Position numbers and translations under genes: made by a program. The notes under the pieces are model-generated. The model worked only from the letters and a program-made list of their open reading frames with translations. It was not told where the DNA came from and made no database searches. Below are positions 805 through 6,376 of a stretch of DNA of 46,320 bases, piece by piece (positions within the stretch are counted from its first letter, which is position 1; each line of letters starts with the position of its first letter). The stretch comes from Clostridia bacterium (GTDB taxonomy: Bacteria; Bacillota; Clostridia; Oscillospirales; CAG-272), in the NCBI GenBank assembly GCA_017503105.1, contig JAFVTS010000016.1:1-46320 (forward strand), written 5' to 3'.

Positions 805-1146
805 ACAAGCCTGATCCTTGACAACTGAATATACCTTCAACAGATACCTTCCCGCTTTTCGCAGGGTGATGAGCCGGCAAGCCACAGTATCCGAAAGCAA
901 AGCTCCGAATAGAACGGAGCTTTGCTCGTTGGGATCGACCACAGAGTTGCTCTTTGTGGATGGCCATGACAGATAGCGGGGACAATGATACTTTCGTAGC
1001 CAAAAGCGCGACCGGCGGAGTACCCGGCGGGGGTGAGATTCCCATGATAACGATTAGCAATCGTTAGTCTGTTGCATGCCCGAAACTTTGCGTTTCCTTT
1101 CCGGGGTGTTGAGAACAAATAGGAATAACAAAAACGATTGATACTC
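805..1146 (+). ncRNA. Candidate structured non-coding RNA
   Basis: This roughly 340-base gap has no convincing gene but many strong helices. They are a perfect 12-bp hairpin (896-907 with 915-926), CCACA/TGTGG (939-943 with 955-959), a perfect 8-bp hairpin with 3-base loop (1048-1055 with 1059-1066), and a two-part stem (1079-1086 with 1092-1105). GC-rich unpaired blocks between them (about 1005-1045) look like conserved junction sequence. The segment ends in an intrinsic terminator directly before mazF. It could be a riboregulator, an attenuator, or an element-specific RNA. I could not match it to any RNA family I know, and its ends are approximate. Confidence 0.5.
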
Positions 1147-1184
1147 AGGCGATAGCCTGCATTTTGCAAGTTATCGCCTTTTTA
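1147..1184 (+). terminator. Intrinsic terminator directly before mazF
   Basis: AGGCGATA (1147-1154) pairs with TATCGCCT (1172-1179), followed by a run of T. It ends 7 bases before the mazF ribosome binding site. Transcription from upstream must therefore read through it to express mazF. Confidence 0.8.
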
Positions 1185-1199
1185 CATTACGGAGGATAT

Positions 1200-2290: not shown

Positions 2291-2306
2291 GCAAGGAGAA
2301 CCTTGC
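2291..2306 (+). promoter_or_regulatory. Short hairpin before the first large recombinase
   Basis: GCAAGG and CCTTGC form a perfect 6-bp stem with an AGAA loop, ending 4 bases before the AAGGAAGGA ribosome binding site (2310-2318). It contains an AAGGAG that could act as a decoy or standby SD. The role is inferred. Confidence 0.35.
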
Positions 2307-2323
2307 AGAAAGGAAGGAATGAA

Positions 2324-3877
2324 ATGAACATTACACAAATTATGCCGACAATACAAGTAACGGCAAAAAAGATCAGACTCGCTCCATACTGCAGAGTATC
2401 AAGCGACTCCGCCGATCAGCTTCACTCCTTCGCCGCACAGATTCGATACTACAGCGATTTTACGAGCAAGCACTCGGAGTATGAGCTTGTAGACATCTAT
2501 GCGGATGAAGGAATCACAGGCACGGACATGAGCAAGCGTGACGATTTTCTCCGCCTTCTGCGCGATTGTAAGAAGGGCTTGATAGATCGAATCATCACAA
2601 AGTCCGTCTCTCGATTTGCGAGGAATACGGAAGAACTTCTCGAAACACTTCGTATGCTCAAATCAATCGGAGTTTCGGTGTACTTTGAAGAACAAGGCAT
2701 CGATACCAACAAAATGAATATGGAAATGATCGTAACATTCCCCGGTATGGCAGCTCAACAGGAGAGCGAAACCATATCGGGGAATTTGCGTTGGAGCATC
2801 AGAAAGCGAATGGAGTCGGGCGAGTACAACTGCACATACCCTGCATTCGGATTCAATCAAAAGAATGGTGTGATGACCATAAACGAAACCGAAGCAATAG
2901 TAGTCAGAAGAATCTTCGATCTATACCTACAAGGATACGGTCTGCAGAAAATCGCAGCCCTACTCAACGCAGAGGGCATCCCAAGACGAGAAGGACAATC
3001 TCGGTGGTATAACTGCACAGTCAAATATATTTTGAAAAACGAAAGGTATATGGGAGATGCAGTCTTACAGAAAAAGTACAGAACGGATACCCTGCCGTAT
3101 AAGCAAAAGAACAACCACGGAGAGCGTCAGCAATACTATGTTGAAAACAGCAATCCGCCGATTATCAGTAAAGAAACCTTCTTAAAGGCACAGGAAATGC
3201 TTCGCTCCAAAAAAGCACCAACGGAGAGGACACAATCTGTACTAAAAGGAAAAATCCAATGTCCCGAATGCGGATGGAACTTCCGCAGACAGAAAATCAA
3301 CGGCAAAAACTATTGGATATGCTCTGGAAGAAGCTCAGGCGAAACCGATTGCAGGCATCGCCGTGTACGAGAGGATATGATATACGAAGCATTCATTAGC
3401 ATGATGTACAAACTCAAGGGTGAGAGAAAATACTTACTTGAAGCGCTTATCCATCAGTTTGAACAGATGCAAAACCGTGCAAGTAAAAGCAACGAACGGA
3501 TACGCCAAATCGATAAGGAGATCGCCGACCTTGGTGCGAGAAACCTTGTAATCTCCAAACTCCACACAAACGGAGTGCTAAATGCGGTTGCATACTCGGC
3601 ACAATCTGCCGACATCAACAATAAGATTGCAATCCTGCGAGCCGAGCGAAAAAAGAAGCTCGCCGAGGACGAGGATGACGAGCTGTTGGATACCCTCAAA
3701 ACGCTAAACGAAATTATAGAAGAATATCAACTTGCGAACGAATTCGATGAGGAACTCTTCGAACAAATCGTCGAGCGAATCACGGTCAACGATAACACAA
3801 GCATCACATTCCACCTTATCGGTGGCGTAGATCTGACCGAAGAAATCAATGAGAAAGGAAGGTGCAAATCAGCGTGA
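2324..3877 (+). CDS. Large serine recombinase, 517 aa
   Basis: Start at 2324 is chosen for AAGGAAGGA at 2310-2318; an in-frame TTG at 2303 lacks a good site. Domain order is that of large serine integrases: catalytic domain (about 18-150) with Y22-C-R24-V-S26, Ser26 the expected nucleophile, and SRFARN (catalytic Arg region); recombinase DNA-binding domain (about 175-290, with SRWYNCTVKYILKNERYMGD); zinc ribbon from C313 (CPEC ... C ... C); then a helical coiled-coil region (about 370-470) and a C-terminal strand segment. It would cut and rejoin attachment-site DNA. It is the first of three recombinase genes, and the next gene begins inside its stop codon (GTGA). Confidence 0.93.
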   Translation: MNITQIMPTIQVTAKKIRLAPYCRVSSDSADQLHSFAAQIRYYSDFTSKHSEYELVDIYADEGITGTDMSKRDDFLRLLRDCKKGLIDRIITKSVSRFARNTEELLETLRMLKSIGVSVYFEEQGIDTNKMNMEMIVTFPGMAAQQESETISGNLRWSIRKRMESGEYNCTYPAFGFNQKNGVMTINETEAIVVRRIFDLYLQGYGLQKIAALLNAEGIPRREGQSRWYNCTVKYILKNERYMGDAVLQKKYRTDTLPYKQKNNHGERQQYYVENSNPPIISKETFLKAQEMLRSKKAPTERTQSVLKGKIQCPECGWNFRRQKINGKNYWICSGRSSGETDCRHRRVREDMIYEAFISMMYKLKGERKYLLEALIHQFEQMQNRASKSNERIRQIDKEIADLGARNLVISKLHTNGVLNAVAYSAQSADINNKIAILRAERKKKLAEDEDDELLDTLKTLNEIIEEYQLANEFDEELFEQIVERITVNDNTSITFHLIGGVDLTEEINEKGRCKSA

Positions 3878-4761
3878 AGAACAGAACAATTCCATACGGA
3901 TATCAAGGCACAAACGGCAACATTATCATCCACCCAAACGAAAGCGTTATCGTAACAATGATATGCCAAGCATACATTTCGGGAACATCATTGCTCAACA
4001 TCGCCAATAGCCTAACCGAACAACAGATCGAGTATATGCCCGGCACGGTAAGTTGGAACAAATCCCGAATCAAGCGGATTATCGAGGACGAAAGATACCT
4101 TGGAACAGACAAATATCCCGAAATCATCAGCATCGACATTTTTCAAGCGATGCAACAAATCAAAAACGAGAGAAACACTCAAAAAGATACCGACCGACAA
4201 GCGGAGATTTTCCAAATCGGTATCCCGGTGTTATGCCCCGAATGCAAAAAGCCCTTGATTAGGCGGCAGGACAAGAGATGCAAATGCAAAGGACGGTGGA
4301 GCTGTGAACAACAAGACGGTTGCAAAACGCTGATAGCCAAAGATGATTCAGAGTTGCTTGCTGATATAACCGCCATCATAAATCAGCTCATAAGCAACCC
4401 TTGGAGCGTTCGAGCAAACGAAGAACGGCGTACTGAAACGAGCATAGAACTTCAACGTTTAAACAACGAGATAGGTTTTATGCTCGATAGCAACGATATC
4501 GACAAGACCGCATTGAGAAAGAAACTATTCGAATGCATGGCTCAAAAATACAAGGAAATCGACTCAACAAGATATTCCACCCAAAGACTGATTGACGAGC
4601 TTATAGCAACAGAACCCCTTGATACATTTTCCCCGGACCTTCTTAAAAAAATAGCCAAAGCAATAATGCTTCAAAAAGATGGAACGGTCGCTTTAATCCT
4701 AACAAACGATCAAATGATCAGAAAGGAGTCGGACGATGGAAGCCACAACCCTACAACCTAA
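3874..4761 (+). CDS. Catalytic-domain-less serine recombinase paralogue, 295 aa
   Basis: The product begins at the recombinase DNA-binding domain (NRTIPYGYQGTNGN, then IIHPNESVIVTMICQAYISG and a VSWNKSRIKRIIEDERYLGTD segment). A zinc ribbon follows from C121 (CPEC ... C-K-C ... C ... C), then a helical C-terminal region. The roughly 150-residue resolvase catalytic domain is absent. GTG at 3874 overlapping the previous TGA fits the 4-base coupling used elsewhere here; GTG at 3862 is the alternative. It has intact reading, its own start and a downstream overlap of 26 bases, so it looks like a maintained DNA-binding partner rather than a decayed gene. Its role as a directionality or targeting subunit is inferred. 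Confidence 0.85.
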   Translation: MKNRTIPYGYQGTNGNIIIHPNESVIVTMICQAYISGTSLLNIANSLTEQQIEYMPGTVSWNKSRIKRIIEDERYLGTDKYPEIISIDIFQAMQQIKNERNTQKDTDRQAEIFQIGIPVLCPECKKPLIRRQDKRCKCKGRWSCEQQDGCKTLIAKDDSELLADITAIINQLISNPWSVRANEERRTETSIELQRLNNEIGFMLDSNDIDKTALRKKLFECMAQKYKEIDSTRYSTQRLIDELIATEPLDTFSPDLLKKIAKAIMLQKDGTVALILTNDQMIRKESDDGSHNPTT

Positions 4762-6376
4762 AAAAGTAGTACGAATTATACCGCCAACGGTTAGCACAAC
4801 CGAAACAATAAAAACGGCACATAGACAGCTTCGAGTGGTTGCCTACTGCCGAGTATCTACCAAGCAAGAGGAACAGTTAAACAGCTACGATGTGCAGAAA
4901 AGATATTACACGGAAAGGATCAATGCTGAACCCGATTGGTGCTTCGTAGGAATCTTCGCAGATAAGGGTATCACAGGAACGAGTGTCAAGAAGCGTGACG
5001 AATTCAATAAAATGATTCGCCTCTGCAAACGTGGCAAAGTCGATATGATTATCACGAAATCAATCTCCCGATTCGCACGAAACACCCTCGATTGCCTCAA
5101 ATACACGAGAATGCTAAAGGAGATCGGAGTGGATGTTTACTTCGAAGAACAAGGCATTCATAGCACCCAACCCGGCGCGGAATTTTATATCACCATATAC
5201 GGCAGCATCGCACAAAGTGAATCCGAAAATATCAGCGCCAATGTTAAATGGGGCAAGGCACAAAGTGCAAAGGAAGGAAGAGTCAGCTTCCACTACAAAC
5301 GCTTCCTCGGATATCGAAAGGGAGAGGACGGCAAGCCCGAAATCGATCCCGAACAAGCTCCGATTGTAAAAATGATATACGAGAGATTCCTCGCAGGCGA
5401 TAGCATCGAAGGAATTATCGCAAAGCTACATGAGATGGGCATCCCCTCACCAAGCGGTAATGCAACGTGGCAAAAATCGACGGTCGTATCTATCCTATCC
5501 AACGAGAGATACAAAGGCGATGCCATCATCAACAAAACCTACATCTCTGATTGTATTACGAAACAAGTAAGGGTAAACGATGGAATACAAAGACCAAAAT
5601 ACTATGTAGAAAACAACCATCCTGCAATCATTGATTCCGCTACCTTCGCAAGAGTTCAAGAGGAACTCTCAAGAAGAACAGGAAAACGCAAGGTCAAGCA
5701 GGTTGGAACGAAAACCGAGCAAGGAAAATACTCAAGCAAATATGCACTTACGGAGCGACTGATCTGTGGTGAGTGCAAAACTCCGTATCGGAGATGCACG
5801 TGGACAATAAAAGGTCAGAAGAAGATCGTATGGCGATGCATCAATCGCCTTGACTTCGGCAAGAAATACTGCCATGAATCCCCAACCGTCGAAGAAAGCA
5901 TTCTCCACGAAGCCATTATGAGAGCAATTATGGAAACGGCACAACAGAATATCGATGTGCTGAAAACTCTGAAGATGCATATCGGTATGGGCTTGCGAGG
6001 TGAGGAAACCGAGGACATCAGTCTGAGTCTACAGATCCGAATGGCAGAGATTGATGCCGAATTTAATGCTATGCTGAATGCGATATCCTCTGATGAGATA
6101 GATAAGTTTGACGAGCAAAGAGCAAGCGAACTGCTGAACGAAAAAAACAGTATCCAAAGCCAACTTGCAGAAATTTCAGAGAGTCGGCAAAAGCGTGAAA
6201 GCACAGAGTCACGACTCGACGAAATATATACCATACTCGATGGACTTAAGAACCATCCGATGGAGTACGATGACCAAATCGTTCGACAGATAATTGAGTG
6301 CGTGATCGTCGAATCCAAAGAGCAAATCAGAGTGATATTCGCCGGAGGATTGGAGGTGACTCAATCGTTAGTATAA
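4736..6376 (+). CDS. Large serine recombinase, 546 aa
   Basis: ATG at 4736 follows AAAGGAG with 7-base spacing. The catalytic domain contains AYCRVS with Ser41 as expected nucleophile, the FADKGITGTSVKKRDEF loop and SISRFARN. A recombinase domain follows (ATWQKSTVVSILSNERYKGD), then a zinc ribbon from C344 (CGEC ... C ... C ... C), a long helical coiled-coil segment (about 430-520) and a terminal strand. It closely resembles the first recombinase in architecture but differs in sequence, so the two are diverged paralogues and not a recent duplication. It is the last gene of the element, and a strong terminator follows at 6444. Confidence 0.93.
   Translation: MEATTLQPKKVVRIIPPTVSTTETIKTAHRQLRVVAYCRVSTKQEEQLNSYDVQKRYYTERINAEPDWCFVGIFADKGITGTSVKKRDEFNKMIRLCKRGKVDMIITKSISRFARNTLDCLKYTRMLKEIGVDVYFEEQGIHSTQPGAEFYITIYGSIAQSESENISANVKWGKAQSAKEGRVSFHYKRFLGYRKGEDGKPEIDPEQAPIVKMIYERFLAGDSIEGIIAKLHEMGIPSPSGNATWQKSTVVSILSNERYKGDAIINKTYISDCITKQVRVNDGIQRPKYYVENNHPAIIDSATFARVQEELSRRTGKRKVKQVGTKTEQGKYSSKYALTERLICGECKTPYRRCTWTIKGQKKIVWRCINRLDFGKKYCHESPTVEESILHEAIMRAIMETAQQNIDVLKTLKMHIGMGLRGEETEDISLSLQIRMAEIDAEFNAMLNAISSDEIDKFDEQRASELLNEKNSIQSQLAEISESRQKRESTESRLDEIYTILDGLKNHPMEYDDQIVRQIIECVIVESKEQIRVIFAGGLEVTQSLV

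Follow-up and report, generated by a model that had tools for sequence, protein, structure and literature searches.

Between a gene for a DeoR-type helix-turn-helix (HTH) protein and a mazF toxin gene of a Clostridia bacterium (Oscillospirales, CAG-272) lies a stretch (805–1199) for which the original prediction had proposed a structured RNA of unknown class, and this locus raises the question of what this RNA is and whether it serves the toxin gene. All coordinates refer to the window, i.e., the whole 46,320 bp stretch of DNA that was analyzed, and to its forward (+) strand unless stated otherwise. The HTH gene (473–799 within an ORF of 419–799; PF08220, 35.3 bits; likely ATG at 473 after a GGAGG) is followed by the RNA, a terminator, mazF/pemK (1200–1574 within an ORF of 1164–1574; PF02452, E = 2.3e-31; likely ATG at 1200), a gene for a small resolvase-domain protein (1571–2065; PF00239, 26.0 bits), and three serine recombinase genes. 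The first and third of these encode large serine recombinases (2303–3877 and 4736–6376; both PF00239, PF07508, and PF13408), and the second (3862–4761) matches PF07508 only, with no match to the catalytic domain. Recombinase 3 is the last gene of the element and is followed by host sequence with genes matching the rsgA, rlmN, rsmB, fmt, def, and priA families. In the triplets of loci L172 and L137, too, the middle recombinase lacks a match to the resolvase catalytic domain. In the former (L172:12479–14403, Massiliimalia massiliensis), a phage portal protein gene, of which the C-terminal part is present, lies after the triplet, which suggests that the triplet was inserted into a prophage. No VirD4 coupling protein (PF02534) was matched in the host genome, an assembly of 44 contigs in which the element breaks off at window base 1, and the element is therefore not called an ICE.

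Among ORFs of at least 70 amino acids, three antisense ORFs and the mazF frame itself (from 1164) overlap 805–1199, and the antisense ORF at 837–1169 (− strand) had no match in the Pfam scan, in agreement with the claim that the stretch is free of credible genes. Its folding energy is better than that of all 100 shuffled versions (z = −3.27), and its opposite strand also folds better than shuffles (z = −3.47). Folding energy alone thus is no proof of an RNA and was not used, so that the case rests on comparative evidence, by which the structured RNA in 805–1199 is real. Lack of conservation and lack of covarying pairs had been named in advance as grounds for abandoning it; both were looked for, and the RNA withstood the comparison. 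The RNA proper extends over about 817–1082 (~265 nt) and is followed by a 3′ motif (1103–1121) and the terminator.

Within this RNA, positions 982–1047 match the pemK RNA of Rfam (RF02913) with 69.3 bits against a gathering cut-off of 34.8 (E = 1.5e-10), which overturns the statement that the stretch resembles no RNA family; no other Rfam family reached its cut-off in the window RNA. The dinG RNA (RF03082) was rejected as the family of the window RNA (17.8 bits, cut-off 46.9). The RF02913 model describes a 61-nt motif of the Rfam type cis-regulatory, and this motif is the 3′ core of the longer RNA. The module starts with a boxA-like element CTTGACAACTGAATA (817–831; matrix score 26.3), followed by the 5′ strand of the closing helix P1 (837–845), which pairs with 1067–1075 (837–1075 is mismatched in the window), and the 5′ strand of helix P2 (849–856), which pairs with 975–982. 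Within P2 lie the two perfect hairpins that had been predicted. The 12-bp hairpin P3 (896–926; 896–907 with 915–926) is a lineage-specific arm with 41.8% of its columns paired, and in the 8-bp hairpin P4 (939–959; 939–946 with 952–959, one pair being G-U) 82.7% of the columns are paired. The 3′ strand of P2 (975–982) adjoins AAUGAUACUU and the core (982–1047), and the hairpin P8 (AACGATT-AGC-AATCGTT, 1049–1065) and the 3′ strand of P1 (1067–1075) complete the structure. A common plan was read from the flanks of 31 loci plus 60 stretches (18 of the 20 stretches in one batch were wider cuts of loci already in the set): CTTGAMAACTGAATA precedes helix P1, whose 3′ strand mostly begins ~20 nt after the core, the 3′ strand of P2 stands directly before AAUGAUACUU, hairpins lie within P2, and a hairpin P8 is present. 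P1 and P2 fall outside the Rfam model, and both covary.

A pattern for the core with 300-nt flanks was found in 71 of 95 loci (24 had none), yielding 55 distinct matches. The boxA-like element scored at least 14 in 41 of these 55 loci and below 14 in the other 14. From the 41 loci, 29 representatives with less than 80% identity, among them Tn916, were used for a swap test, which consequently leaves the 14 loci with a poor box outside its scope. The mean pairing of each sequence with its own partner strand exceeded that of swapped strands for P1 (21.05 vs. 12.78) as well as for P2 (18.93 vs. 12.70), a difference reached in 0 of 20,000 permutations for either helix; exceptions were L069 (P1 absent from the part searched), L008 (weak P1), and several poor ranks for P2. 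In a plain MAFFT alignment of 18 sequences, double changes occurred at seven of eight P1 pairs and all seven P8 pairs, and at none of the three pairs of the short helix P7; 83.2% of the cells paired, compared with 69.2% after shuffling and at most 46.0% when the strands were slid. Across 80 rows fitted to a covariance model of the full-length RNA, the paired fractions were 94.6% (P1), 80.7% (P2), 82.7% (P4), 82.2% (P8), and 41.8% (P3), and the covariation score was 0.582 against 0.173 in shuffles, with no excess of pairs changed on both sides (34; shuffles 34.6). Since this alignment was fitted to the structure of the model and includes its 18 training sequences or copies of them, the swap test and the MAFFT alignment are the more independent tests.

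On a tree, double-sided changes between standard pairs numbered 98 (P1), 73 (P2), 55 (P4), and 78 (P8), compared with at most 10, 14, 6, and 9, respectively, when the partners were rotated; these counts cover the best-aligned pairs (9/9, 5/8, 4/6, and 5/7, respectively) and omit P3 and P7. In the same pairs of the four helices, G-U outnumbers A-C by 94 to 23 even with the terminal U-G of P1 excluded, which favors the forward strand acting as RNA, and in 53 of 79 rows P1 ends with a U-G pair. Both observations speak against a DNA-level element, i.e., a site of recombination or transfer whose folded form would be of use to the recombinases. Such a site would fit the proximity to recombinase genes and the good folding of the opposite strand, but the RNA also precedes ParA-type and ParB-like genes, and mutants of its Tn916 counterpart canT are reported to excise normally (PMC11658703), so that we regard a DNA-level function as highly improbable. 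By the same excision result, the proposed role in recombination-site choice is without support.

The box matrix was built from 25 of the 55 distinct RNA loci. A strict box pattern was found in 41 of the 80 aligned rows, and stretches farther upstream also reached a score of 14 in 6 of 54 loci. A boxA of this kind would be expected to recruit NusB/S10. As no rRNA boxA sequence was found in the literature search, rRNA loci were scored instead, and the same matrix detected a box of at least 17 bits beside the 16S rRNA gene in six of seven loci, from two of three genomes of the host's order. Three of these loci (genome G108) carry boxes on both sides of the 16S gene and three (G343) after it only (upstream score 5.9); the single locus of G336 has no box (8.7 and 7.7), and a fourth genome (G330) gave no 16S gene. 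Searching 20 relatives with a box pattern was uninformative.

The same arrangement of parts is found in Tn916. In the copy carried by pCF10 (L032), they lie between orf8 and xis, at the cis-acting processive antiterminator canT, and RF02913 matches inside canT with 55.0 bits. A full-length model (R1), built from 18 sequences excluding Tn916 and with the structure read from the window, finds canT over its positions 1–258 with 102.5 bits (E = 8e-35 by a rough calibration). The window, which unlike canT is a training sequence, scores 180.4 bits over the same positions, and the next match in the 50-kb Tn916 record reaches 13 bits; matches under ~20 bits were taken as noise. The boxA start, P1, P2, and the AAUGAUACU core of this class are all present in the window. 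Judged by this homology, the window RNA is of the canT class and is the same RNA as canT of Tn916, so that it is not of unknown class but a pemK RNA with a known counterpart. A second AACTGAATA box lies at 190–198 of the window, followed by a long terminator-like hairpin; this segment (184–271) matches R1 with 18.5 bits and is possibly a decayed or minimal copy of the RNA, or noise.

The published account describes canT as cis-acting, orientation-specific, and processive, as acting on unrelated terminators in series, and as failing to rescue a canT mutant when supplied in trans (Wirachman and Grossman, 2024; PMC11658703). The mutation canT(S3), in which ATA is changed to TGC from nt 283 after orf8, lowers the reporter activity to below 5% according to this report (PMC11658703). 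By the numbering of that paper, S3 falls on L032 41922–41920, the three positions with which the RF02913 match begins and which read ATA. The published 162-nt deletion maps to L032 41976–41815 and removes the core, and the published active fragment of 452 nt begins at TTGAAAACTGAATA, inside the box. A 400-bp fragment is described as active yet hardly affected by S3, fold predictions as not explaining canT activity, and the interpretation is called complicated by the authors themselves (PMC11658703). No published link between pemK RNA and canT was found in a search that covered few subscription papers, so that such a link may exist elsewhere. In the literature retrieved, pemK is named among RNAs near defense-associated genes (PMC11061315), serves DecoyFinder only as a test set (PMC11507696), and has, according to two papers, a structure from which covarying pairs are missing.

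Downstream of the RNA, an intrinsic terminator (1147–1183; −19.7 kcal/mol, z = −6.9) consists of a hairpin (1147–1179) and a run of U's, which ends 7 bases before the GGAGG at 1191, exactly as had been noted for the Shine–Dalgarno (SD) sequence of mazF. With a relaxed filter and shuffle controls (a stricter filter had missed the window's own terminator), 26 of 58 loci showed a terminator-like site in the 220 nt that follow the RNA, compared with 43 of 290 shuffles, and none was found near downstream in the remaining 32 loci. Between the RNA and the terminator lies the 3′ motif GGGGTGTTGAGAACAAATA (1103–1121), which was matched against GGGGTGTCGAGGACAAATA. When up to four mismatches to GGGGTGTCGAGGACAAATA are allowed, this motif (GGGGTGTYGAGRACAAATA) occurs in 22 of 58 loci and in 0 of 290 shuffles. 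Tn916 differs in being without this GGGGTGT..ACAAATA motif, its best candidate having nine mismatches.

A terminator placed directly before the SD of mazF is what a mazF-specific cis-regulator would need, an attenuator or riboswitch-like RNA that senses a signal, gates only this terminator, and replaces the protein antitoxin. The Rfam typing of RF02913 agrees with such a device, and so does the finding that PemK is the commonest Pfam match among the first downstream genes of related RNAs (22 of 61), ahead of serine resolvases (11), ParA-type ATPases (4), and phage integrases (3). For this count, 62 of the 80 R1 matches were taken and 61 scanned (58 entered the terminator and motif tests). The first ORF was as a rule at least 90 amino acids long and started within 1.5 kb, so that the count misses small genes such as Tn916 xis and may include some spurious choices. 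However, no match to PemK was obtained for 39 of the 61 first genes. Relatives of recombinase 3 were found in 80 loci, 52 of which extend at least 4.2 kb upstream; the RNA precedes the recombinase in 29 of these 52 and in 3 loci with less room, 32 in total (one match, in L126, being partial), and 23 of the 52 have no RNA. A motif pattern search revealed a mazF-like frame after the RNA in just 18 of these 32 loci and none in 14. The proposal that the RNA controls mazF thus holds insofar as mazF often comes first, but not as an exclusive relationship: the RNA accompanies operons for integration and partition and hence serves these, with mazF as one passenger. As canT moreover precedes xis and int and acts on unrelated terminators, a switch dedicated to mazF is unlikely, and the best reading is that the RNA is not mazF-specific.

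In the window, the genes beside mazF are the DeoR-type HTH gene upstream, beyond the RNA, and the resolvase-like gene downstream, and no antitoxin family was found there among ORFs of at least 70 amino acids, where a type II mazEF system would have one. This would leave room for a trans-acting or RNA-antitoxin-type (type III-like) RNA that binds MazF, but homologues occur without an adjacent mazF and the trans-supplied canT was without effect, making an RNA antitoxin very improbable as well.

In surveys of genomes, RF02913 matched in 139 of 394 from the host's order and in 26 of 398 drawn from its phylum, with no match in the 14 control genomes of both surveys. The full-length model matched in 9 of 59 relatives and in none of 35 other genomes of the same genus, a patchiness expected of a mobile element.

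Given the structured RNA and the terminator-like hairpin observed here, the order of the genes, and the homology of the RNA to canT, positions 817–1082 very probably represent a canT-class antiterminator RNA that forms the leader of the integration operon of a mobile element. Antitermination by the window copy, the involvement of Nus factors, and read-through across joined ends are inferred from what is described for canT and boxA. Transcription would start upstream, and the nascent RNA would fold into the boxA, a multibranched structure closed by P1, the P2 domain, and the AAUGAUACUU core. Acting in cis, and probably assisted by Nus factors that are recruited to boxA, this RNA would render the elongating polymerase resistant to terminators. 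The polymerase could then pass 1147–1183, the first terminator that it meets, and transcribe mazF, the resolvase-like gene, and the recombinase triplet, in keeping with the early expectation that the business of this structured RNA is terminator read-through. Spurious transcripts without the RNA would stop at the terminator, so that mazF would also be kept silent. An outward-pointing RNA near the element end would further allow transcripts to cross the junction after excision and continue into the rest of the element, as in Tn916.

The assignment gives an Rfam family named after a neighboring toxin gene a testable function, and provides canT with a covariation-supported secondary structure in which one inactivating mutation falls on the conserved core. 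If RF02913 RNAs act like canT, RNA-based antitermination would be a common control layer of mobile elements in the host's order and phylum. We moderately favor the wider view that pemK RNA, dinG RNA, and canT form one widespread class of boxA-bearing antiterminators, by which mobile elements of this phylum would switch on integration and partition operons, borrowing the host machinery for rRNA antitermination, and of which a natural minimal form (boxA, P1, and core, in tandem arrays in one genome) would exist. The dinG RNA, found in one genome out of 98 from the host's order, shares the box in all three loci examined (15.9, 24.9, and 21.7), together with a strong P2-like helix. A clear P1 is seen in L033, the only one of the three loci with an R1 match at E = 1e-6 (L033:1374–1616, 25.3 bits), whereas the cores of L034 and L035 read AATGGCACT and not AATGATACT; the dinG RNA thus may belong to the same class. 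At L042:5935–7536, four tandem 233-nt repeats spaced by 431–498 nt carry a short version of the RNA in which boxA, P1, and the core are present and the P2 domain is almost absent, located by eye upstream of a ParB-like gene; this is a possible natural minimal antiterminator array.

Other systems resemble the window element in part. In the conAn system of pLS20, a conjugation operon likewise begins with an RNA component and antitermination is processive, but the protein ConAn1 is needed as well (PMC8955417); positions 1–50,000 of the 65,774-bp pLS20 record, within which conAn2 was not located, contain no R1 (E = 1e-6) or RF02913 match. The put RNA of HK022 and the EAR element of eps operons are RNA antiterminators too, as cited in PMC11658703, and are set apart here by Rfam scores, RF02913 being the sole family above its cut-off in the window RNA. 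Streptococcal ICEs with serine-integrase triplets share the three tandem serine integrase genes at the element end, although their description makes no mention of a leader RNA (PMC4701971). In Tn916, for whose canT antitermination was tested and to which the window RNA is likened from its sequence, canT precedes xis and the tyrosine integrase gene int with no mazF between them, whereas the window element encodes serine recombinases, and P8 of canT is short and poorly matched. The two nevertheless have in common the boxA, P1, P2, and the core in the same order, the outward-facing position by the integrase genes, and the succession of RNA, integrase genes, and element end.
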